Positions 1 through 9,700 of a DNA stretch of 64,000 nucleotides are shown here, in pieces. The notes under the pieces were generated by a model that worked only from the letters and a program-made list of their open reading frames with translations, searched no databases and had not been told where the DNA came from. Source of the stretch: Armatimonadota bacterium (GTDB lineage Bacteria > Armatimonadota > Fimbriimonadia > Fimbriimonadales > Fimbriimonadaceae); NCBI GenBank assembly GCA_025360125.1, contig JANYCU010000043.1, forward strand, positions 1 to 64,000. The letters are read 5' to 3'. A program made the position numbers and the translations under genes. How positions within the stretch are numbered: position 1 is the stretch's first letter; each line of letters starts with the position of its first letter.

Positions 1-213
1 ATTTGCCTTGGTGACGTAACTGCCAATCAAGAACAGACCGTACATAGCCATCAACGGAAGCATTAACTGAGGCAGGACAGCAGTGAGGCAGATGATAGCT
101 ATATAGCCAATTCCTTTCAGAACGTTGATGAAACATCCCTGCGCGGTTTTCTGTCCCCAAATGGCAGCGATGAGTGCGCCGAAAGCCAATACAACGAGTG
201 CAACTCCAATCAT
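1..213 (-). CDS. Partial membrane protein, C-terminus outside the window
   Basis: An open frame runs leftwards from an ATG at 213 off the window edge with no stop in 71 codons. The visible part has two hydrophobic stretches, an N-terminal one (residues 1-18, starting MIGVALVVLAFGALIAA) and a second around residues 35-62, separated by a short polar link with a Cys. This is the pattern of a small integral membrane protein. It is divergent from the XRE-type regulator next door, and the palindrome at 232-258 lies between the two starts. I do not recognise a family. Confidence 0.5.
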   Translation of the reverse strand, partial: MIGVALVVLAFGALIAAIWGQKTAQGCFINVLKGIGYIAIICLTAVLPQLMLPLMAMYGLFLIGSYVTKAN

Positions 214-231
214 CCCAGCTACAGTTTACTT

Positions 232-258
232 CAAGTGACTGCAAATTGCAGTCACTTG
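232..258. promoter_or_regulatory. Perfect 13-bp inverted repeat, likely operator
   Basis: CAAGTGACTGCAA and its exact reverse complement TTGCAGTCACTTG face each other across a single A. The repeat covers the most 5' possible start (GTG at 235) of the XRE-type gene and sits just upstream of the divergent membrane-protein start at 213. Regulators of this family often bind such dyads to repress their own and divergent genes, so an autoregulatory operator is the simplest reading. It also argues that the true start of the regulator is downstream of the repeat. Confidence 0.6.
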
Positions 259-555
259 TCTATCTATTCTTCGTATGTGGAGAAATCGTCTGGAACGCGA
301 AATGAAACGATTGCGCCACGAACTGCCGAGTACCAAAACATAGGGATATGGATTCGGAAACAGCGAGAAAAGTCAGGTTTAAGCCAACGGGAAGTATCAC
401 GGGCCTTAGGTAAGAATCAATCCTTCATGTACCGTGTAGAACGGGGCGAGCAACGCATCGACTTGCTTCAGTTTTTGGATCTGATTCAGATGCTTGGCGT
501 GGACAAGACGCAAAGTATTGAAATTTTGTGGGCCTCAATTAAGGCAGTTTGTTAA
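235..555 (+). CDS. XRE-family helix-turn-helix regulator
   Basis: The longest frame is 106 residues from GTG 235. The segment from about residue 38 (IRKQREKSGLSQREVSRAL, then GKNQSFMYRVERGEQRID) is a typical Cro/C1-type HTH, with the recognition helix followed by the conserved E-R-G motif. The first 30-odd residues look non-conserved and their DNA is occupied by the palindrome at 232-258, so TTG 256 or GTG 277 are more likely starts; none has a strong ribosome-binding site. It is probably a repressor of itself and of neighbouring accessory genes. No metallopeptidase or toxin domain is fused to it. Confidence 0.8.
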   Translation: MTANCSHLSIYSSYVEKSSGTRNETIAPRTAEYQNIGIWIRKQREKSGLSQREVSRALGKNQSFMYRVERGEQRIDLLQFLDLIQMLGVDKTQSIEILWASIKAVC

Positions 556-574
556 GACTCGATCAAATGGCTCG

Positions 575-787
575 CTACATTGCTCGAACAGTTCGCACCG
601 TTCGTTTGCCGCCCATCTTTCGCTCGAATCGCTCCCGAACCATCGCTAACGCCTCTTCGAACGAGATGCCATATCTGACCATGTACGATTGAGCGAAGAG
701 TTCTTTGCCCTCTTCCGTGTTCAAGTCGATATCATCTACTGATGTTGCTACTCGCGTTTCCATATTCTGCTCTAGCTTCTTTGCCAT
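575..787 (-). CDS. Small hypothetical protein, partner of the HExxH protein
   Basis: A 70-residue acidic/basic protein with no signal peptide or membrane segment. The middle (residues 18-50) is predicted helical and the tail is rich in Lys/Arg (RFERKMGGKRTVRTVR). Its ATG at 787 lies inside the end of the upstream gene (16-bp overlap, stop at 772), so the two are translationally coupled. Small basic proteins overlapping a larger gene are common in toxin-antitoxin and phage-derived pairs, but nothing here proves that. No family recognised. Confidence 0.55.
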   Translation of the reverse strand: MAKKLEQNMETRVATSVDDIDLNTEEGKELFAQSYMVRYGISFEEALAMVRERFERKMGGKRTVRTVRAM

Positions 788-1464
788 GACAATCTCCTAA
801 AGAGCCTGTCTATCTCTTGTTCCACATCGTCGAAGTCCGATCCTTGCCAGTAATTGAACACTTGCAATTCACCGACCCAATGGTTATGACTACATTCTAC
901 AACCATTTGTTCGTTGATACTCTCTCCTTTATGTCGGCGGCAAATGTAGAGTTCATAAGACCGCGCCCATAGTTCGCGGACCTTTAGCAGGATTTTTACT
1001 TCCTTCGAAACAGGGCTTTTTGATTCTAGGCGGTCATCAGCCTGGAGTAAGATTTTGTGGTGAGTCGAGGCCTGAACTGCTACCCACCAAGGTCTCAAGA
1101 GATCTGTATCCTCGTCTCGGAAACCATCGATACCTTTCGCCAAGTCAGAAGCAAATTGAAGCGGTGGATCCAAGGGATCGTCTCCGAACTGAACAGAATT
1201 GAGAAATACGCCATCTAATACATGTCCCATTTCATGAAGTCCTGCCAACGTGGGATAGGGCGTTTGGGAACTGATCAACACTTCAAAGCTGACAGCATGC
1301 CGTCCATGAACACCATATGGCAGTTCAGAAAATGCAAAGTCATAATCTGCCTGGCCCTGAACTAAATGGACTTCATCAATCAGTCTGCAAATCTCATCCA
1401 AATGAGCTTCTGATCTGCCTCCATCGTTGTCAGGTGTAAAGCTCTCCCTCAGACGATTTAGCAC
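772..1464 (-). CDS. Putative HExxH zinc metallopeptidase-like protein
   Basis: A 230-residue soluble protein. Residues about 76-80 read HEMGH inside LAGLHEMGHVLDGV, a zinc-binding HExxH motif. Further on is ELWARSYELYI, which resembles the glutamate-containing helix that supplies the third ligand in several phage-associated and lethal-factor-like metallopeptidases. The start at 1464 is the only good ATG. It heads a two-gene unit with the overlapping 70-residue gene. Catalysis is inferred from the motif alone; substrate unknown. Position in an accessory island favours a mobile-element or defence role. Confidence 0.5.
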   Translation of the reverse strand: MLNRLRESFTPDNDGGRSEAHLDEICRLIDEVHLVQGQADYDFAFSELPYGVHGRHAVSFEVLISSQTPYPTLAGLHEMGHVLDGVFLNSVQFGDDPLDPPLQFASDLAKGIDGFRDEDTDLLRPWWVAVQASTHHKILLQADDRLESKSPVSKEVKILLKVRELWARSYELYICRRHKGESINEQMVVECSHNHWVGELQVFNYWQGSDFDDVEQEIDRLFRRLSWQRS

Positions 1465-1590
1465 TGGGGCATTTTACTATCAATATAAAGGCATAGACTC
1501 CTGCAAAATCGCTTTATGCAAACCTTTCAGCGCAGTCTTGTTTATCGGATTTTATGATTCGATGTAAACTGTCTTTGAGCCCGTCTCCAA

Positions 1591-2643
1591 ATGTCCAAGA
1601 TCAACCTCGATACCCATTTTAACGATCCCATCAAAGAGTGGACAGCTCGAAAGCATCTCCTTATCACGAGGTATGTAGTGCCCGCTGCAATGATGATGAA
1701 GTCAATCAGAGGAAAAAGAGAGGTTGCGTTGATTGACGGCTTTGCTGGTCCCAATTCTTATGACGGAGAGGTAAAAGGCTCGACGGTCATAATGGTCGAA
1801 GCCGCCAAGAACGTGATTGAGAAGGGTGCTTCAGCCACTGTATACGCTTGCGAGGAAGATAGTGATCGCTATAAGGTATTGACAACCGTACTTGCAGATG
1901 CGATACGGGATGGAATTTTAATTGCATACAATTCTAAACATCATGCCAAAGTCGGGGAAATTCAGAAGAGCATGGGCAGTAAACCTGCAATTGTCTTTCT
2001 CGACCCTCAATGCCCAAGCGAACTTACGTTGGCGGGCGACCTCAAACCATGGACCGAAAGGAAATCCACCGATATACTTGGCGTTTTCATGGGAGGCGGA
2101 GCCTGTAGGGCCTGTGCGCAAGGCGTCTTAAATGGACAGGACAAAGAAAAAATGGAAGCATCCTTGGGAGAAAATTGGAGAACGGCCACTACTTTAGAAG
2201 CAGCATACGAAGTTTATGAGTCCGCAATTGGACCCCTCAAACGACACTTTGGACTTTATCGCCTTCGAAAGCAAGAACCCAAAACGGATGCTTATGGGAT
2301 TTTTGGCCTTTCTGACAGCCCAAATGCGATGGCCCTTCTATCAGATGCCGTTGCCAAAGACTGGGGCGTCCTCATGCAAATCGATGCTTCAAAAACTACG
2401 CCGAGCCTATTCGATTTTCTTCCTGAGGAACTCGGGGAACAGGACAGCTTCACATCTTTACTGGAATTCAGTCGCCCAATCCTCAAAACTCAGAGACAAA
2501 TCAAGGGTCGAGAACTCGCTCATGCTATTTTTGCAGGAGAGAATGGGAAGAAGGCATTCGGCCAATATCAATGGAGCGACTACACTAAGGCGGCGAATCA
2601 TGTTCGCGATGAATTTGAAAAGGAGATGGCGGTGAGCAATTGA
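1591..2643 (+). CDS. tcmP: Three-Cys-motif partner protein TcmP
   Basis: 350 residues. The N-terminal half has a Rossmann methyltransferase-like layout: [14 protein letters not shown] (residues 46-59) as the glycine loop, VYACEEDSD as the acidic end of strand two, and AIVFLDPQ as the strand-four motif. This is the signature arrangement of the TcmP family, named for its constant pairing with a three-cysteine protein. That partner is the next gene, whose TTG start overlaps this stop (ATTGA). The family's biochemical role is not established; a SAM-binding or nucleotide-modifying role is inference from fold. Gene neighbours suggest defence. Confidence 0.8.
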
Positions 2644-3437
2644 AAGCAACTCATATTGAATGGACGAATATGACGTGGAATCCTGTTACGGGTTGCACAA
2701 AGGTCTCCCAGGGCTGCAAGCACTGCTACGCCGAACGAATGGCGAAGAGGCTAAAGGCGATGCGTTCGCCAAGATATCAAAACGGATTTAAGGTCACACT
2801 CCATCCCGATCTGCTTGATGTACCTAAACGGTGGAAACAACCTCGCCTTATTTTTGTAAACTCGATGAGCGACCTTTTCCATGAAGACGTTCCATTGGAA
2901 TTTATCCAGTCCGTTTTCAGAACAATGCGCGAATGTCCTCACCACGTTTTCCAAATTCTCACAAAGCGAAGCTCTCGTCTTCTGGAACTGTCTACCCAAC
3001 TTGACTGGCCCAATAATGTGTGGATGGGTGTTAGTGTAGAAGATTCCAATGTAACTAAACGAATTGACGATCTTCGTCAGACGGGCGCAAAAATAAAGTT
3101 CTTGTCTTTGGAGCCCTTGATCGGCCCACTTGAAAAGCTCAATCTCAAAGGAATCCATTGGGTCATAGTGGGCGGAGAAAGCGGTCCTAAATCTAGACCA
3201 ATTGAAGCAGACTGGGTTAGATCGATTCACAGGCAATGTAAAAAGGCGAACGTGGCCTTCTTCTTCAAACAATGGGGAGGCGTGCGAAAAGACTTGGCTG
3301 GGCGAACACTCGATGAGAAAACATATGACGAGTTCCCTAAGTCAAACTTTGCAAACCACGGAACGCAAAAGCCATTGATTGGAATACCGATGGTACTTGA
3401 AAGCAATCTCAAGGATCAGGCTCTTCAAGCTGTCTGA
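2640..3437 (+). CDS. DUF5131 / phage Gp37-Gp68 family three-Cys protein
   Basis: 265 residues starting at a TTG that overlaps the tcmP stop codon. The N-terminus [14 protein letters not shown] is the family hallmark, followed by Cys19-x6-Cys26-x2-Cys29, a radical-SAM-like cysteine cluster that probably holds an iron-sulfur centre. The rest has alternating strand/helix segments ([35 protein letters not shown]) typical of a TIM-like barrel. Family members occur in phages and beside tcmP in bacterial islands. The substrate is unknown. The close coupling with tcmP and the Abi_C gene 6 bp downstream points to one operon. Confidence 0.8.
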
Positions 3438-3443
3438 GAAATT

Positions 3444-4304
3444 ATGCTGATCTCGCTCGCCACCCGTAAAGAGTTTCGAGAGTGGATGACTGGTTGGGTT
3501 TTGCGGCAGATCGACGAAGAGTTCCAGAATGCTGGATTACACGTTGATCCCTACTATGAAAGTACGATGCAGGGAGAGAGAAGGCGTCTGATCGACACTT
3601 ATTACCATGCCATCGATTTTACGGATTGGGGACAGGTTAATCGCCTTTTGAAAGTCTACGAAACCGTGATCGATCAGGCAGAAAGTACGAACAGTGAGCA
3701 ACTTCCCAAATTCATAAAGTGCCTTTCGCGTGATGGTTTCATTTACGAAGAACACAGGATATTGCCGAAAGGCGGGCAACTTGCATTAAAGGGAATTTCA
3801 CAGATAGCCATCCATTTCGATGCTTCGTATATTAACACCCAAGTCGCCAGAATTGAGGCGTCAGTCGACTCAGATCCTGCTCTTGCAATTGGTTCGGCGA
3901 AGGAGCTGGTCGAAACATGCTGTAAGACCATTCTTAGTGAACGCGGTGTTGTTGTGGAAGAGTTTATGGATCTGCCCAAGCTAGTCAAGGTGACACTTAA
4001 GGAGCTAAATCTTGCACCTGAGGATGTTAAAGCACCCAAGAAGGAAACTGACACAGCAAAGAAAGCCGAAGAGGCGATGAAGAGACTTTTGCAGAACCTA
4101 GGCGGGATTGCGGGCAGCCTAGCAGAACTTAGAAACCTTTTGGGAACTGGTCACGGACCTGATGGGAAAGTAAAGGGACCCAAACCGCACCATGCAAAAT
4201 TGGCCGCTGGTGCAGCTACGACATTTGTAATGTTCCTTTTTGAAAGTCACCGCGAGAATTTAAGCAAGACAAAGCTACATGATCAAGCTGATGCGAAGCC
4301 GTGA
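3444..4304 (+). CDS. Abortive-infection protein with Abi_C (HEPN-clan) domain
   Basis: 286 residues. The N-terminal half is unassigned. From about residue 125 it matches the abortive-infection C-terminal family: an ARIEASVDSDPALAIGSAKE helix start, then the closing motif ELRNLLGTGHGPDG with Arg230-x6-His237. That Arg/His pair is the HEPN-type signature of many RNA-cleaving defence effectors. The ATG at 3444 is 6 bp after the DUF5131 stop, so it is probably cotranscribed with tcmP and DUF5131. Likely role: the effector arm of an anti-phage module that halts growth on infection. RNase activity is inference. Confidence 0.72.
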   Translation: MLISLATRKEFREWMTGWVLRQIDEEFQNAGLHVDPYYESTMQGERRRLIDTYYHAIDFTDWGQVNRLLKVYETVIDQAESTNSEQLPKFIKCLSRDGFIYEEHRILPKGGQLALKGISQIAIHFDASYINTQVARIEASVDSDPALAIGSAKELVETCCKTILSERGVVVEEFMDLPKLVKVTLKELNLAPEDVKAPKKETDTAKKAEEAMKRLLQNLGGIAGSLAELRNLLGTGHGPDGKVKGPKPHHAKLAAGAATTFVMFLFESHRENLSKTKLHDQADAKP

Positions 4305-4375
4305 CTGAGAGCATATCTCGTACTTCGCAAGATTTCATGTAGGTAGGGTTTTTCATTGTCTCGAAAAATCATCTT

Positions 4376-5083
4376 ATGGCAAGTGCCGAAGATATCAAAA
4401 ACCTCATGCTCGCATATGAGATTGTAGGGAATGACCTGGACCAACGCTGTTGCAAAAAGGTTGCTAACATCACCGACAAGGTTATGTACAGAATCTCGAA
4501 GAATTCCACTTGGCAGAATGTTGGAGATGCACTTCAGAATACGGTGATTGATCCTGCCGTAGCCGCTGGGCAGACAGCGATGAACGCGGCAAATGCCGTT
4601 GGACAAACAGCCTCTAATGCTGCCAATGCGGTTGGTCAATTTGCTCAAGACTGGCTCAGTCCTCAAGCACTCGCCACGAAGTCGGCTCAGTTCCTACAGG
4701 AGCAGCTAAATAAGGCAATTGATGCAACAGTGAAACAGAAGCTCACCGCTGAACTGCAACGACGTGGAATACAACCCTCTGCATCGCAAACTGCGACCCC
4801 AACACCCGAATCCCAAAATGCGATGATATCCAAAGTTCTCGATTGGGCCAAAAAAGTCCACAGCCTTCCCTACAATGGTGCAGATAGTGTCCACGATGGC
4901 TGGGGTGTTATTAACGACGCCATCCGAGACAATACAGTTCTTACGCCAGCTTCGAAACAGTCTCTCAAACAGCAGTGGGCTCAGCTAGCTGAAACATTGC
5001 CCAAACAACCACCTGCTAGTGCCAAACCAAAACCCGCAGGTCCTGCCCCATCAGCCACTGCAACACCGCCTACAAATGTCTGA
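4376..5083 (+). CDS. Hypothetical protein with Ala/Asn-rich repeats and Pro-rich tail
   Basis: 235 residues, same strand as the Abi_C gene and 71 bp after it. Residues about 62-90 contain a doubled helical unit (AANAVGQT...AANAVGQ). A helical region with many Gln/Lys follows, a middle segment (about 143-190) looks globular, and the last 30 residues are Pro/Ala/Lys rich (KPKPAGPAPSATATPP). No signal peptide, no membrane segment, no family recognised. There is no clear ribosome-binding site at the ATG. It may be a fourth member of the defence-like operon or an unrelated island gene. Confidence 0.55.
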   Translation: MASAEDIKNLMLAYEIVGNDLDQRCCKKVANITDKVMYRISKNSTWQNVGDALQNTVIDPAVAAGQTAMNAANAVGQTASNAANAVGQFAQDWLSPQALATKSAQFLQEQLNKAIDATVKQKLTAELQRRGIQPSASQTATPTPESQNAMISKVLDWAKKVHSLPYNGADSVHDGWGVINDAIRDNTVLTPASKQSLKQQWAQLAETLPKQPPASAKPKPAGPAPSATATPPTNV

Positions 5084-5089
5084 TGACAG

Positions 5090-5731
5090 TTAAGGCTCGC
5101 CTTCTAAAAGGCGTGCGGCTTCCTTCTCTCGGTCGAATTCCGCAAGAAGATCGTCTTCAGTGACACCTGCTAATTTAAGGAGCGACTTACATATCACTTG
5201 GGAAACAAATTCAGCATTCTCAAACTTGTCTTTAGTTTCAATTAGCTCGGCAGATATTCGACGCATCCCAGCCACTGTGAGAAGATCATTGGCTTTTCGA
5301 AAGAAAAAGCCGTGACAAAGACCATTGCGTAAGCGCAGGGCATCAGTTAGGATTTCTTCCGCATCGTCGGCAATGCTGATCTGCTTTCGAACTTTCGTCA
5401 GAAGGGCTCCAAGAGTTTTTCCCGAAAGGTCTGTCTCAAAAGCTTCATACTCCTCTTCTGTGACGAGATCTCCCAGAACCTTTGCATGCAGCAAGAGGAT
5501 GTTAAGTAGATCCGCTTCAAACAGCTGAGCCTGATAGAGAGCTATCCCGACGAGGGCACACACATGCTTCCACTGACCAAGACTGTCGAGTTCGTCAAAC
5601 TCTTCTTTGAGCAGGTCTTCTATCCAGTTTTCGTTGATGGGAGTATCTGGTTCTCCGTAAATTAAGCCCATGTAGATCTTGGGCTTTCCCCCTTCATTGG
5701 CCATGGTGCCAGTATACAGAACCCACCGCAA
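5090..5731 (-). CDS. HEPN-like protein (Rx4H motif)
   Basis: 213 mostly helical residues. Near the middle is ALRLRNGLCHGFFF, with Arg135-x4-His140, the pattern of the HEPN nuclease motif, preceded by an acidic helix bundle (residues 45-130). It converges on the 4376-5083 gene with a 6-bp gap. The start may be the ATG at 5704 (MANEGG) rather than 5731. HEPN proteins are common toxins and defence RNases; the motif fits but no partner nucleotidyltransferase is adjacent. Its start lies 11 bp beyond the stop of the gene broken by the IS element. Confidence 0.6.
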   Translation of the reverse strand: MRWVLYTGTMANEGGKPKIYMGLIYGEPDTPINENWIEDLLKEEFDELDSLGQWKHVCALVGIALYQAQLFEADLLNILLLHAKVLGDLVTEEEYEAFETDLSGKTLGALLTKVRKQISIADDAEEILTDALRLRNGLCHGFFFRKANDLLTVAGMRRISAELIETKDKFENAEFVSQVICKSLLKLAGVTEDDLLAEFDREKEAARLLEGEP

Positions 5732-5742
5732 TGGATTTTTAG

Positions 5743-5802
5743 CTAGGCCAGATTCAAACTAGGCACTTTGTAAAAGGACTGCATACCCAGATTAAAAATT
5801 AC
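5743..5802 (-). pseudogene. Severed 3' end of the secreted-protein gene broken by the IS
   Basis: Reading leftwards from the element's left target duplication gives, in frame, the residues FNLGMQSFYKVPSLNLA and a TAG at 5743-5745. Joined to the codons that end at 9309 (after removing one copy of the 8-bp duplication), it restores an uninterrupted frame of about 147 codons with the 9309-9700 gene. That continuity is direct evidence for the insertion site. Confidence 0.75.
5795..5802. repeat. Target-site duplication, left copy
   Basis: AAAATTAC directly abuts the left inverted repeat of the IS element; an identical copy follows the right end at 9309-9316. Eight bp fits the 8-9 bp usual for IS1-family insertion. 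Confidence 0.88.
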
Positions 5803-5818
5803 GGTAGTGTATCAGTTT
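5803..5818 (+). repeat. Left terminal inverted repeat of the IS
   Basis: GGTAGTGTATCAGTTT, identical in complement to 9293-9308. Beyond base 16 the similarity is patchy (A and T-run positions match). Confidence 0.88.
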
Positions 5819-5855
5819 GATTTTTCCAGGTTCAACGGGGGAAAATGTCTAAAAA

Positions 5856-6347
5856 TTATTCTGGCAAGGATTTTGGAGCCGAAGGCAGTTCTGAAGTCAC
5901 CTCTACCTGAGGGGCAGGGAACGCGATAATTTCCTTTGGTGTTATGAACTGCGTCGGGACAGGTGGAACCGTCAACAATGCGCGTGGGGCCATGTTTGCG
6001 ATCAATTCCCTAAAGTAAGGTCGCACCATGACGTGAAGTTGCCGGGTACTGTACTCTTCGGCAAACTCTTCAGAATAAGTTCCTTCCGTGTAAAGCAGGA
6101 GTTCATACTTTGCCTTCAGAAGCATGACTGGCTCACTTGAGCTTTCCTCGATGATTCTGGCGGTGTATTCCTGGGAAAAGGCTATACAGCCCTCGGAAAT
6201 GCCCCAAACCGCCTCTCCGGTCAATTCAGGTGGGCTAGTAAGCCGTGGAGAAAACGTTTGTTGGTACGTTGTGAAGAACACGTTTCGGAGTACGACACTT
6301 GATGTTCGTGTTCGCTCCAGGAGTGGATTGTATTCTTGTGGACGCAT
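5856..6347 (-). CDS. SecB-like chaperone (TAC chaperone candidate)
   Basis: 163 residues, close to the length of SecB (about 155). It has the SecB order of features: an early strand VVLRNVFFTTY, a central region of long strands (VMLLKAKYELLLYTEG), then the family's best-conserved stretch HVMVRPYFRELIANM followed by APRALLTVPPVPTQF, matching the PY-x-RE-x-I-x-x-M and Pro-rich strand of SecB. It is the last gene of a leftward operon behind an antitoxin-like and a toxin-like gene, the layout of toxin-antitoxin-chaperone modules in which a solitary SecB folds the antitoxin. Its start overlaps the antitoxin end by 113 bp. Confidence 0.7.
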   Translation of the reverse strand: MRPQEYNPLLERTRTSSVVLRNVFFTTYQQTFSPRLTSPPELTGEAVWGISEGCIAFSQEYTARIIEESSSEPVMLLKAKYELLLYTEGTYSEEFAEEYSTRQLHVMVRPYFRELIANMAPRALLTVPPVPTQFITPKEIIAFPAPQVEVTSELPSAPKSLPE

Positions 6348-6642
6348 GGGAAACAGGACTTAATATACCACGAAGCCCGTGCTGTTCAGGCTCGGGCTCG
6401 GGTTCGAATTCTTGGGTGAGGTCTTCCCATGTTGGAACGGGAATCTTCTCTCCATTTTTTAACATCCATTCATATGCTAGCGGGGCAATTTCTCCTAAGA
6501 TCGTCAAAGCCTTGTCTCGGCTGTCGGCAAACGCTCGGAAAATGTTTTCGCCTAGAGTCGGCACAACTGCCAGCCAGTCTCCATTTGCAAGTTGAGTGAC
6601 CTCAACTCTCCAGGGAGTTCCGCCTATTAGAATAGATTTCAT
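6235..6642 (-). CDS. HicB-like antitoxin candidate
   Basis: 135 residues from ATG 6642, chosen because AAGGTGG lies 8 nt upstream; the frame is open further but that part is not conserved. Residues 9-62 have the HicB pattern of short strands then a helix: WRVEVTQLANGDWLAVVP, a turn, ADSRDKALTILGEI. An acidic Glu/Pro patch follows, and the last 35 residues share DNA with the SecB-like gene. In TAC systems the antitoxin has a C-terminal chaperone-addiction tail that requires SecB, and the tail here sits in that place. The exact TA family is uncertain. Confidence 0.55.
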   Translation of the reverse strand: MKSILIGGTPWRVEVTQLANGDWLAVVPTLGENIFRAFADSRDKALTILGEIAPLAYEWMLKNGEKIPVPTWEDLTQEFEPEPEPEQHGLRGILSPVSHASTRIQSTPGANTNIKCRTPKRVLHNVPTNVFSTAY

Positions 6643-6736
6643 TTTCGCCACCACCTTAAAATGATTGGCATTTTTCTCATCACATCTCATTGTAACCATA
6701 TTTATTGTTCCATGTGCTACGAAAGTTCCATGTGTC

Positions 6737-7090
6737 CTAGGGATTCTCCTCAGATTCAAGAGCTTCCTCTTCTAGCAAATATCCTATATATTTCATGACG
6801 TCGTCCACGTACCATTGCGTGCATTCACGATCATGAATCACAACACTGAATTTTGTCTTTCCCCAGCGAGCCTGGATCAACCGGGACGCAACTCTCACCG
6901 TGTAAAGGTGGCTTCCACCATTCTTGGAGCAGTCATCTACAAACGGTGCAATGATTCTGTGAGACAGCAATTGAGCCATATCCTTGTCGGACATGGGCTT
7001 ATTGCCCTTCTTCGATTTGAGGGTGTCGTATAGCTTTTCAGCCTTAGATCGGTTATCTTTATTCGACACTGGAAGATCACGAGTATACAC
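6737..7090 (-). CDS. HicA-like toxin candidate
   Basis: 117 residues from a GTG at 7090 (GTG 7069 and ATG 6994 are alternatives). The middle reads NGGSHLYTVRV, similar to the GSHH-type strand of HicA mRNA interferases where His is catalytic, followed by strand-rich FSVVIHDRECTQWYV and a C-terminal helix. It is longer than usual HicA (60-80 residues) because of an N-terminal Lys-rich extension. It comes first in the operon, 94 bp ahead of the antitoxin-like start, as in many toxin-first HicAB loci. Family assignment rests on one motif and on context. Confidence 0.42.
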   Translation of the reverse strand: MYTRDLPVSNKDNRSKAEKLYDTLKSKKGNKPMSDKDMAQLLSHRIIAPFVDDCSKNGGSHLYTVRVASRLIQARWGKTKFSVVIHDRECTQWYVDDVMKYIGYLLEEEALESEENP

Positions 7091-7119
7091 GTCGTGGCTT
7101 TAAGGTGATAAAACTAAGA

Positions 7120-7146
7120 ACGCATGCTTAGGCGTCTAAGTAGCGT
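7120..7146. promoter_or_regulatory. Nested inverted repeat between divergent cargo operons
   Basis: ACGC-3-CTTAG-GCGT-CTAAG-2-GCGT: a 5-bp dyad nested in a 4-bp dyad, in the 68-bp gap between the leftward TAC-like operon (start 7090) and the rightward operon (start 7159). TA operons are commonly repressed by their own complex at such dyads, so this is a candidate operator for one or both. Confidence 0.4.
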
Positions 7147-7158
7147 AGAATAAGGCAT

Positions 7159-7398
7159 ATGGCAAAACATCAAGGCCCAGAGGACTTTGCTGAGACCGCG
7201 TTCGGGGTCTTTCAGCAAGCAACTGGCGAAGTCAAAAATGATGAGCCGCTAAAGAATCCTGCCGCTGTCGCGCTTGGCAAACTTGGCGGATCGAAAGGCG
7301 GGAAAGCAAGAGCCGCAAAGCTATCTGACCTTCAGCGATCAGAAATTGCAAAAAACGCAGCTTCAGTTCGGTGGAAAAAACAAAAGGAGGACGAATGA
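7159..7398 (+). CDS. Small basic GGKARA-motif protein
   Basis: 79 residues. The C-terminal half carries the motif ALGKLGGSKGGKARAAKLS, then RSEIAKNAASVRWKK, a short Gly/Lys/Ala-rich pattern seen in many small uncharacterised bacterial proteins and loosely resembling histone-like or antitoxin N-termini. The stop overlaps the start of the protease gene (ATGA at 7395-7398), so the two are translationally coupled. It may be a partner or substrate adaptor of the protease. Function unknown. Confidence 0.65.
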   Translation: MAKHQGPEDFAETAFGVFQQATGEVKNDEPLKNPAAVALGKLGGSKGGKARAAKLSDLQRSEIAKNAASVRWKKQKEDE

Positions 7399-8396
7399 TG
7401 GAAGACGATCAAGTGAAAGCGTTGCTGTCCGCAGCAGCTAAATTGGCGGAGTCCTCAAAATCGGATGTCCTGTTTTTCAACGGTCCAATCCAGGATTCAC
7501 CAAGCCAGCGGCTGATTAAACGAGTCTCGGACCGACAAGGGAAACTTGAAAACGTGTACTTTTTTCTGACTACCTTAGGGGGCGATCCTCATGGCGCGTA
7601 TGTGATGATGCGATGCCTTCAGCGTAATTACAAAAGAGTCACAGCGGTAATTTTGGGCGATTGCTATAGTGCCGGAACCTTAATGGCACTCGGAGCGAAC
7701 GAGTTGGTCCTGTCGGATAAAGGTCATTTCGGTCCAATTGATATTCAGATTCGAAAGAAGGATGAGTTTTTTGAAAGAAGCTCAGGAATGGTCGTATCGA
7801 AGGCATTGGAAGAACTTCAGAGCATCGCCATAAACTCAATGGAGCAGTTCATGGTTGGGTTAGTTGCCAGATCCGAAGGACAGATAACGCTCAAGACCTC
7901 AATGGATGCGGCTTCCAAATTAACATCCGGGTTACTTGGAGAACTTTACAGGCAGATTGACCCGTATAGAATCGGTGAAGATGCTCGCGCAATGCAGGTC
8001 ATGAAACATTACGGTGATCTTCTTGGAAAGAAAGGAGGCAACATCATAGATGGAACGCTCGATCACCTTTTGAACCACTACCCGGACCATGGATGCATCA
8101 TCGACAGGGATGAGGCTTCAGACTTATTTAAGGTCGCCAGAGGTCCAAATGACGACGAAAAGGAGTTGTTTGATTTATTGGACTCAATAACTGAAACACC
8201 CATACAGAAGGCGAAAGACGCCGCAATAATGTATATTAACCCGATTGAGCAAACCAAAGAAAAGGAAAAAGCAGATGGCAATACAACAGACAATGATGCA
8301 GGAAATGGAAAGGGCGGCAAAGGAATCCAACCGCCAACAGGAAATGGCAAAGCAGAACCAAAAGGACCTGCTACAGCAACTGCAAAAAGAGACTGA
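7395..8396 (+). CDS. SDH-family Clp-fold serine protease
   Basis: 333 residues from ATG 7395, with AGGAGG 4 nt upstream (ATG 7398 is equally possible). It has the crotonase/ClpP-like core of the serine dehydrogenase proteinase family: DVLFFNGPI strand, FLTTLGGDPHGAY glycine turn, LGDCYSAGTLMALGA with nucleophile Ser92, and SDKGHFGPIDIQI with Asp108 and His111. No signal peptide. The core ends near residue 285; the last 45 residues are a Gly/Lys/Asn low-complexity tail whose DNA also encodes a coiled-coil frame (8275-8424). Cytosolic peptidase is the likely activity; target unknown. Confidence 0.75.
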   Translation: MMEDDQVKALLSAAAKLAESSKSDVLFFNGPIQDSPSQRLIKRVSDRQGKLENVYFFLTTLGGDPHGAYVMMRCLQRNYKRVTAVILGDCYSAGTLMALGANELVLSDKGHFGPIDIQIRKKDEFFERSSGMVVSKALEELQSIAINSMEQFMVGLVARSEGQITLKTSMDAASKLTSGLLGELYRQIDPYRIGEDARAMQVMKHYGDLLGKKGGNIIDGTLDHLLNHYPDHGCIIDRDEASDLFKVARGPNDDEKELFDLLDSITETPIQKAKDAAIMYINPIEQTKEKEKADGNTTDNDAGNGKGGKGIQPPTGNGKAEPKGPATATAKRD

Positions 8397-8424
8397 AAAA
8401 TTGGAATGTTCCAACAAAAAGTAA
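8275..8424 (+). CDS. Overlapping small coiled-coil ORF
   Basis: A 49-codon frame (+1 relative to the protease) starts at ATG 8275 with AAGGA 8 nt upstream and ends at TAA 8422-8424, past the protease stop. The product is almost entirely Gln/Glu/Lys/Met/Leu (for example QQTMMQEMERAAKES and KDLLQQLQKETEKLE) and would form a charged coiled coil. By contrast, the protease frame over the same DNA is low complexity. Either this is a real overlapping gene, or the protease tail arose by frameshift into it. Confidence 0.35.
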   Translation: MAIQQTMMQEMERAAKESNRQQEMAKQNQKDLLQQLQKETEKLECSNKK

Positions 8425-8429
8425 CGAAA

Positions 8430-8467
8430 ATGATTAGTATGCTTTCATAATTAAGTATACTAATCAT
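8430..8467. terminator. Stem-loop just before the transposase start
   Basis: ATGATTAGTAT (8430-8440) pairs perfectly with ATACTAATCAT (8457-8467) across 16 nt; the transposase ATG is at 8469. The stem has no T-run, so it may stop read-through from the cargo or hide the transposase ribosome-binding site in long transcripts, a known way IS elements limit transposition. Which one applies is inference. Confidence 0.45.
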
Positions 8468-8468
8468 T

Positions 8469-9293
8469 ATGAACTCAAAGTCACTCGCTTCTAAAGCTCA
8501 GATTGTCCGTTGTCTCTGTGAAGGTAACAGCATCCGAAGCACTTCAAGGCTTTGCGGATGCGCCATCAACACGGTCATAAAGCTCTTGCTTGAAATGGGT
8601 ACCGCTTGCTCGCAATACCAGGATCGAGAGCTACGCAACTTGAATTCACTCGTCGTACAAGTTGACGAAATTTGGTCATTCGTCGGATGCAAGCAAAAGA
8701 ACGCAGACGAAGAGAAGCAATCCCAAGGTCAAGGCGATGCTTGGACGTGGACCGCCATTGACGCAGATTCTAAGCTCATGATTACTTGGCTTATCGGTGG
8801 ACGCGGTGAAGGTTACGCAACTTCGTTCATTACTGATCTTGCAAGCCGAATGAAGAACCGTATTCAACTTTCAAGCGATGGTTACGGAGCCTACAACAAT
8901 GCCGTCAAACTTGCCTTTGGCGCGAATGTGGACTACGGACAGATCATCAAGGAATACGGCTCTGATATCTATGCAGAGAAGCGATACAGCCCAGCCGTAT
9001 GCACGTCGGTCAAAACCAAATGCATCACAGGTGATCCAATGGACAGCCAAATCAGTACAAGCTACGTCGAACGGTCAAACCTTTCAATCAGAATGTGCAA
9101 CCGACACTTTACGAGACTAACCAACGCTTTCAGCAAGAAGATTGAGAACCATATCGCCGCGTTCAGCTTGTATGCCATGCACTACAACTTCTGCAAGAAG
9201 CACGGAACGATCAAAACGAGTCCAGCAGTTGAGGCAGGATTAACCGATCATATCTGGACAGTCGAGGAAATGATTCAGAAGGTTCTAAATTGA
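8469..9293 (+). CDS. IS1-family transposase, single-frame type
   Basis: 274 residues in one uninterrupted frame, unlike classical IS1 that needs a frameshift. An N-terminal HTH (SIRSTSRLCGCAINTVIKLL) precedes the DDE core: LVVQVDEIWSFVG with the first Asp near residue 66, LSSDGYGAYNNAV with the second Asp, and STSYVERSNLSIRM with the Glu, followed by the family's NRHFTRLTNAFSKK motif. The stop TGA shares a base with the right inverted repeat. All catalytic residues are present and both ends are intact, so it may be active. Confidence 0.85.
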   Translation: MNSKSLASKAQIVRCLCEGNSIRSTSRLCGCAINTVIKLLLEMGTACSQYQDRELRNLNSLVVQVDEIWSFVGCKQKNADEEKQSQGQGDAWTWTAIDADSKLMITWLIGGRGEGYATSFITDLASRMKNRIQLSSDGYGAYNNAVKLAFGANVDYGQIIKEYGSDIYAEKRYSPAVCTSVKTKCITGDPMDSQISTSYVERSNLSIRMCNRHFTRLTNAFSKKIENHIAAFSLYAMHYNFCKKHGTIKTSPAVEAGLTDHIWTVEEMIQKVLN

Positions 9294-9308
9294 AACTGAT
9301 ACACTACC
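9293..9308 (-). repeat. Right terminal inverted repeat of the IS
   Basis: AAACTGATACACTACC, exact complement of the left end. Confidence 0.88.
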
Positions 9309-9316
9309 AAAATTAC
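9309..9316. repeat. Target-site duplication, right copy
   Basis: AAAATTAC directly after the right end, identical to 5795-5802. Confidence 0.88.
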
Positions 9317-9700
9317 GGAACCCGGAGGTGTTCCAGTAACATCAGCAGTTAATGCATAATGCACCGTGATTTCCGAAGCATTACCGGAGGAGTAAAGACG
9401 ATCATAATATATTTGACCGCCCGAATAGAGGGACGTTATAAGTATGGACCCTTGCGTGTCCCCGGCGTAAACCGCAGTCCAAGTGCTTCCAACTACATGC
9501 CAATATTCATCAGTATCGGCAATTGTTACGTCAAATGTCGTAGACGTGTGGTTATTGATCGAGATGGACGAGGGGACCGTAAATACCACTGGTGTGGCAG
9601 GGCCTTTGCCAATATAATAGTTGGTACCTTGCGCAAATGCCGTGGCTGTAAAAATTATTGATCCTATTGCGAGAATGCAGAGCTTCGATATCGACTTCAT
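9309..9700 (-). pseudogene. Secreted protein gene truncated by the IS insertion
   Basis: Starts at ATG 9700 with a clear Sec signal peptide (KLCILAIGSIIFTATAFAQG). The mature part is small and strand-rich with Thr/Ser/Tyr repeats (VPSSISINNHTSTTFDVTIA). Codons to residue 130 are original; after that the frame now runs into the IS end and stops at 9275, adding 11 foreign residues. The original tail of 17 residues and its stop are at 5743-5794 beyond the element. The truncated protein may still be exported. No family recognised. Confidence 0.7.

Follow-up and report, generated by a model that had tools for sequence, protein, structure and literature searches.

The three leftwards-transcribed genes at positions 5856–7090 of the window (the whole 64,000-nucleotide stretch of DNA that was analysed) very probably form a HicAB-type toxin-antitoxin-chaperone (TAC) operon. 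The open reading frames proposed in an earlier note on this DNA are confirmed at their coordinates, are co-directional, and lie in the order toxin, antitoxin, SecB-like chaperone (Table 1). The TAC reading of that note as a whole is supported by the conservation of gene order in relatives, by the HicB profile match, and by a SecB fold that is nearest to that of a TAC chaperone. The kind of system (HicAB-SecB TAC) is already known, and what is new is a copy in the Armatimonadota (Fimbriimonadaceae) that has an atypical antitoxin.

In the mechanism we propose, the HicA-like toxin, probably a ribonuclease that has a dsRNA-binding-like fold and a catalytic histidine (His61), would arrest growth through RNA cleavage, and the N-terminal domain of the HicB-like protein would bind and block it. 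The SecB-like TAC chaperone may bind the C-terminal tail of freshly made antitoxin, aiding its folding and shielding it from proteolysis. Were the chaperone to become limiting, as might occur through stress, unfolded proteins or phage infection, the antitoxin would be lost and the toxin freed.

Identification of the three genes

None of the three window proteins alone has a Pfam or NCBIfam match above threshold, and the three give no match with PADLOC. However, profiles built from relatives alone, with the window sequence excluded (leave-one-out profiles), and run against the whole 64 kb have these three genes as their sole significant matches, with E values of 5e-7 for the toxin, 2.7e-9 for the antitoxin and 2e-13 for the SecB-like protein; the next best in-window match is at E 0.8 or worse. 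Because the profiles single them out in this way, the three frames are not chance open reading frames. Scans of viral contigs with window and family queries gave no match, and neither did plasmid and phage searches by tblastn with the family SecB. The Shine-Dalgarno sequence that had been noted for the antitoxin is present at a suitable position (Table 1). The toxin and antitoxin genes overlap in several of the relatives, whereas in the window there is a gap between them that contains two short repeats.

Table 1. Features of the predicted TAC operon and its gene junctions.
Feature	Coordinates	Strand	Description and basis
HicA-like toxin	6737..7090	(-)	117 aa; GTG start; GGSHLYTV motif; putative catalytic His61; ORF and leave-one-out profile
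Toxin-antitoxin intergenic gap	6643..6736	(-)	94 nt; two CACATGGAAC repeats, 18 nt apart
Shine-Dalgarno-like AAGGTGG	6651..6657	(-)	8 nt upstream of antitoxin ATG; read from sequence
HicB-like antitoxin	6235..6642	(-)	135 aa; ATG at 6642; ORF and leave-one-out profile
Antitoxin/SecB-like gene overlap	6235..6347	(-)	113 nt, different frames; encodes antitoxin tail and SecB-like residues 1-37; candidate chaperone-addiction region
SecB-like chaperone	5856..6347	(-)	163 aa; PYFRELIANM stretch; ORF, leave-one-out profile and AlphaFold model

The best solved match to the SecB family profile is Rv1957, the Mycobacterium tuberculosis TAC chaperone (5mtw, E 6.5e-4), in a structure where it is bound to an addiction peptide. 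The window protein as modelled by AlphaFold (pLDDT 70, with residues 126–153 uncertain) has a helix, four strands and a long helix, in the SecB order. Foldseek searches with this model place the four 5mtw chains at the top, at 1.2e-5 to 1.0e-4, with export SecB behind them, and VIA-align gives Z 12.1 for 5mtw (120 residues, 2.3 A) and Z 9.1–9.6 for the export SecB crystal structures of E. coli and Haemophilus influenzae. The presence of a SecB fold in the model was a check set beforehand, and the SecB-like assignment is borne out. The earlier description of this SecB as solitary also holds, as neither Pfam nor the family profile finds a second SecB homologue in the genome.

The toxin was the weakest of the original calls, and we regard the protein as HicA-like with moderate confidence, on the basis of the GSH motif, a profile-profile match and the order of strands and helices, the fold match being weak. 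Five residues (G58, S60, H61, V65 and Y94) are invariant in an alignment of ten toxin sequences. When the toxin family profile is compared by hhalign with one of 14 HicA proteins from the phylum, the score is 28.6 (P 9.5e-5) with GSH aligned onto GSH; the maximum among 200 column shuffles is 19.8, the reversed control scores 11.7, and the HicB and SecB profiles score 15–16. Only two toxin siblings match Pfam HicA_toxin, with a best E of 6e-4. The model of the window protein (pLDDT 74) has helices at residues 11–28 and 35–42, strands at 51–57 and 60–66, a short helix, a strand at 80–86, and a helix at 92–115, an order that is compatible with the helix, three strands and helix of HicA. Structure prediction, which had been suggested as a check, does not contradict the dsRBD-like fold of HicA, but the match is weak: VIA-align gives Z 3.5 for 5yrz_B (57/58 residues), 3.3 for 6g26_F (60/60) and 2.9 for 1whz (64/70), with unrelated structures at equal Z. 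Foldseek with the toxin model returns nothing under E 0.001, and the fold evidence is only suggestive. The best PDB sequence matches of the toxin profile are a designed protein and calbindin, which we take as chance. We note that the toxin start is ambiguous (GTG at 7090 or at 7069), and that there is a promoter-like TATACT at 7087–7082 just after the first GTG, although such sites are no commoner here than in shuffled sequences.

The antitoxin and its overlap with the chaperone gene

For its N-terminal domain, the antitoxin is HicB-like as had been proposed: in addition to the leave-one-out match, positions 7–80 of the family profile match the solved HicB structures 6u0i (4.4e-4) and 6hpb (1e-3), and plasmid relatives of one family antitoxin (at locus L007) are annotated as HicB. 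The protein has a HicB N-terminal domain (residues ~1–70), an acidic linker (~73–87), and a basic tail of ~48 residues (~88–135) that contains no acidic residues, is rich in basic ones, and is mostly encoded in the overlap with the chaperone gene. A C-terminal DNA-binding domain is common, although not universal, in HicB antitoxins. The Pfam HicB ribbon-helix-helix (RHH) domain is present in 11 of 12 aligned antitoxins, with the window protein the sole exception; its tail is also unlike those of the aligned relatives, and in relatives such as L017 the distance from the HicB core to the start of secB is ~210 nt (~70 residues) longer than in the window. Judged by its sequence, the window antitoxin is atypical, an apparently stripped-down form without a recognisable DNA-binding domain, which raises the question of whether such a HicB is still chaperone-addicted.

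The earlier note took the overlap of the antitoxin tail and the SecB start to place the chaperone-addiction region where TAC systems have it. There is indeed an overlap of the two genes in different frames, but its length is within chance: when the start of secB is recoded synonymously, an equally long open frame results in 22% of cases (p ~0.22). As an overlap of this sort arises so readily by chance it does not locate the chaperone-addiction region, and we rejected it as evidence for one. The depletion of acidic residues in the tail encoded by the overlap has p 0.06. In the relatives the antitoxin/secB overlaps are short, either 4 nt (ATGA) in L012, L017, L019 and L022, or ~10–20 nt in L006, L007 and L016. 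It is conceivable, although doubtful, that the window protein represents a minimal TAC antitoxin in which the DNA-binding domain has been dropped and the addiction tail overprinted on the 5' end of the chaperone gene, the same 113 nt encoding both. If this were so, the tail would be locked in evolution to the N-terminus of its possible binding partner, the chaperone. The basic, acid-free tail (residues 88–135) fits known SecB-binding stretches, but dual coding of the overlap is within what chance could produce. No close relative suitable for a selection test was found.

The antitoxin also has a stretch, VPTWEDL, that resembles the M. tuberculosis peptide EVPTWHRLSSYRG (PMC6377645), and which from the sequence might be a candidate chaperone-binding stretch, as a lead only. 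The HicB domain ends at this stretch, which is in an acidic context of the kind that SecB-binding stretches disfavour (PMC5105189).

Relatives and alternative explanations

Relatives were obtained by searching whole genomes of the same class and phylum. The toxin-antitoxin-SecB order recurs in eight further Armatimonadota genomes: G080 (L006), G061 (L007), G183, G186, G187, G178, G235 (L016) and G213 (L045). The loci of this order in genus g92 are L012, L017, L019 and L022, with the toxin frame broken by a frameshift in L019 and by a stop codon in L022. Within the window's family, the HicB proteins are 171–194 aa long when secB follows and 139–148 aa long without SecB, and those preceding SecB mostly have tails containing Trp or Tyr. 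Examples of HicAB without SecB are L014 and L018, with HicB proteins of 148 and 139 aa.

In genome G181 (L011, 1498–2350, on the same contig as L050) the antitoxin is cut short at 148 aa and no more than ~40 C-terminal SecB residues are left, while the toxin frame is intact. This is a natural deletion in which most of secB was lost along with the antitoxin tail and the toxin and antitoxin core were spared, as the chaperone-addiction model predicts, and with this joint loss the family provides a natural test of chaperone addiction. An exception to the length pattern is L015 (465–1845), with a HicA and a HicB of the same family; the HicB is long (207 aa), and in the chaperone position there is a DUF6941 gene, its start overlapping the hicB end. 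We reject for now DUF6941 as a general SecB replacement, as 30 other DUF6941 loci were examined and the family's HicAB is beside none of them.

A rather unlikely alternative to a working operon is that it is a TAC module in decay, in which a deletion has removed the DNA-binding domain and original tail of the antitoxin so that it now reads out of frame into secB, with no working chaperone addiction. This would fit the missing RHH domain, the ~70 fewer residues between HicB core and secB start, and a frame through the overlap that could be open by chance (p 0.22), and decay of such a module by deletion has a precedent in L011. However, none of the three window frames is broken, the conserved motifs (GSH, the HicB core and PYFREL) are all retained, and the antitoxin is preceded by a good ribosome-binding site.

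It is quite improbable that the locus is a two-part HicAB pair beside a SecB-like chaperone that serves export or general folding and not the antitoxin. Family members lacking SecB (L014 and L018) would be consistent with this, as would the fact that no chaperone-binding tail has been located in the window antitoxin. But few genomes of the phylum have SecB-like genes (9/291 or 15/291, depending on which of two profiles is used), none was found in the same-genus genomes searched, those in the phylum are mostly located behind toxin-antitoxin pairs, and the chaperone model is closest to the TAC chaperone of 5mtw. The idea that the first gene encodes an unrelated small protein and not a HicA-type ribonuclease draws on the weak fold match and on the window protein having no Pfam match, but is very unlikely given that GSH is invariant, that the HicA profile-profile match exceeds those of the shuffles, and that the gene has a constant position ahead of a HicB.

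Comparison with known systems and genomic surroundings

HicAB-SecB TAC modules have been described previously, and that of Methylomonas methanica (Mmet-TAC; Bordes et al. 2016) is chaperone-controlled in E. coli (PMC5105189). Likened by description and not by sequence, Mmet-TAC and the window locus both combine a HicA-family toxin, a HicB-family antitoxin and a SecB-like chaperone in one module; the window differs in having an antitoxin without a recognisable DNA-binding domain, encoded by a gene that shares 113 nt with secB. In the M. tuberculosis HigB1-HigA1-Rv1957 system, the C-terminal tail of the antitoxin recruits the chaperone (5mtw; PMC6377645). Its chaperone fold (Z 12.1) and its gene order are like those of the window, whereas its toxin and antitoxin are of the HigBA family and not HicAB. 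Two-gene HicAB modules have the same toxin and antitoxin families as the window but no chaperone, and the chaperone-less HicB proteins of the window's own family have a shorter C-terminus. CmdTAC of E. coli is an anti-phage defence system whose toxin is an mRNA ADP-ribosyltransferase (PMC11618068); again by description and not by sequence, it shares with the window the tripartite arrangement of toxin, antitoxin and SecB-like chaperone, but its toxin is not HicA-like. A literature search found no report joining Armatimonadota, SecB and toxin-antitoxin. The window locus extends the HicAB-SecB TAC modules to this phylum, whose SecB-like proteins mostly occur alongside toxin-antitoxin pairs.

At the left end of the window, positions 1–9700 (9.7 kb) have a G+C content of ~0.45–0.48, compared with 0.51 from 10 kb onwards. 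With this low G+C, candidate defence genes and an IS1-type transposase, we infer that the TAC module is probably in a mobile or defence island. The transposase (8469–9293) is near the end of the low-G+C stretch and could mark an island boundary. At 1591–3437 there are two genes matching the PADLOC candidate defence systems PDC-M30/M41, the second of which encodes a DUF5131 protein (PDC-M41B, E 1.8e-124), and next to the TAC operon, at 3444–4304, a gene encodes an Abi_C domain protein that weakly matches AbiJ. Beside the operon on its other side is a ClpP-like serine protease gene (7159–8396; SDH type, below the family cut-off), preceded by an overlapping 79-aa ORF.

Elsewhere in the phylum, SecB-like genes at L024, L025, L027 and L040 are situated behind genes for RelE/HigB-like toxins and HTH antitoxins, and these are probable HigBA-type TAC modules. 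Two SecB-like genes (L025 and L042) are near phage-like genes, with a weak match to a Mu-like prophage protease at L025, which suggests carriage by prophages.
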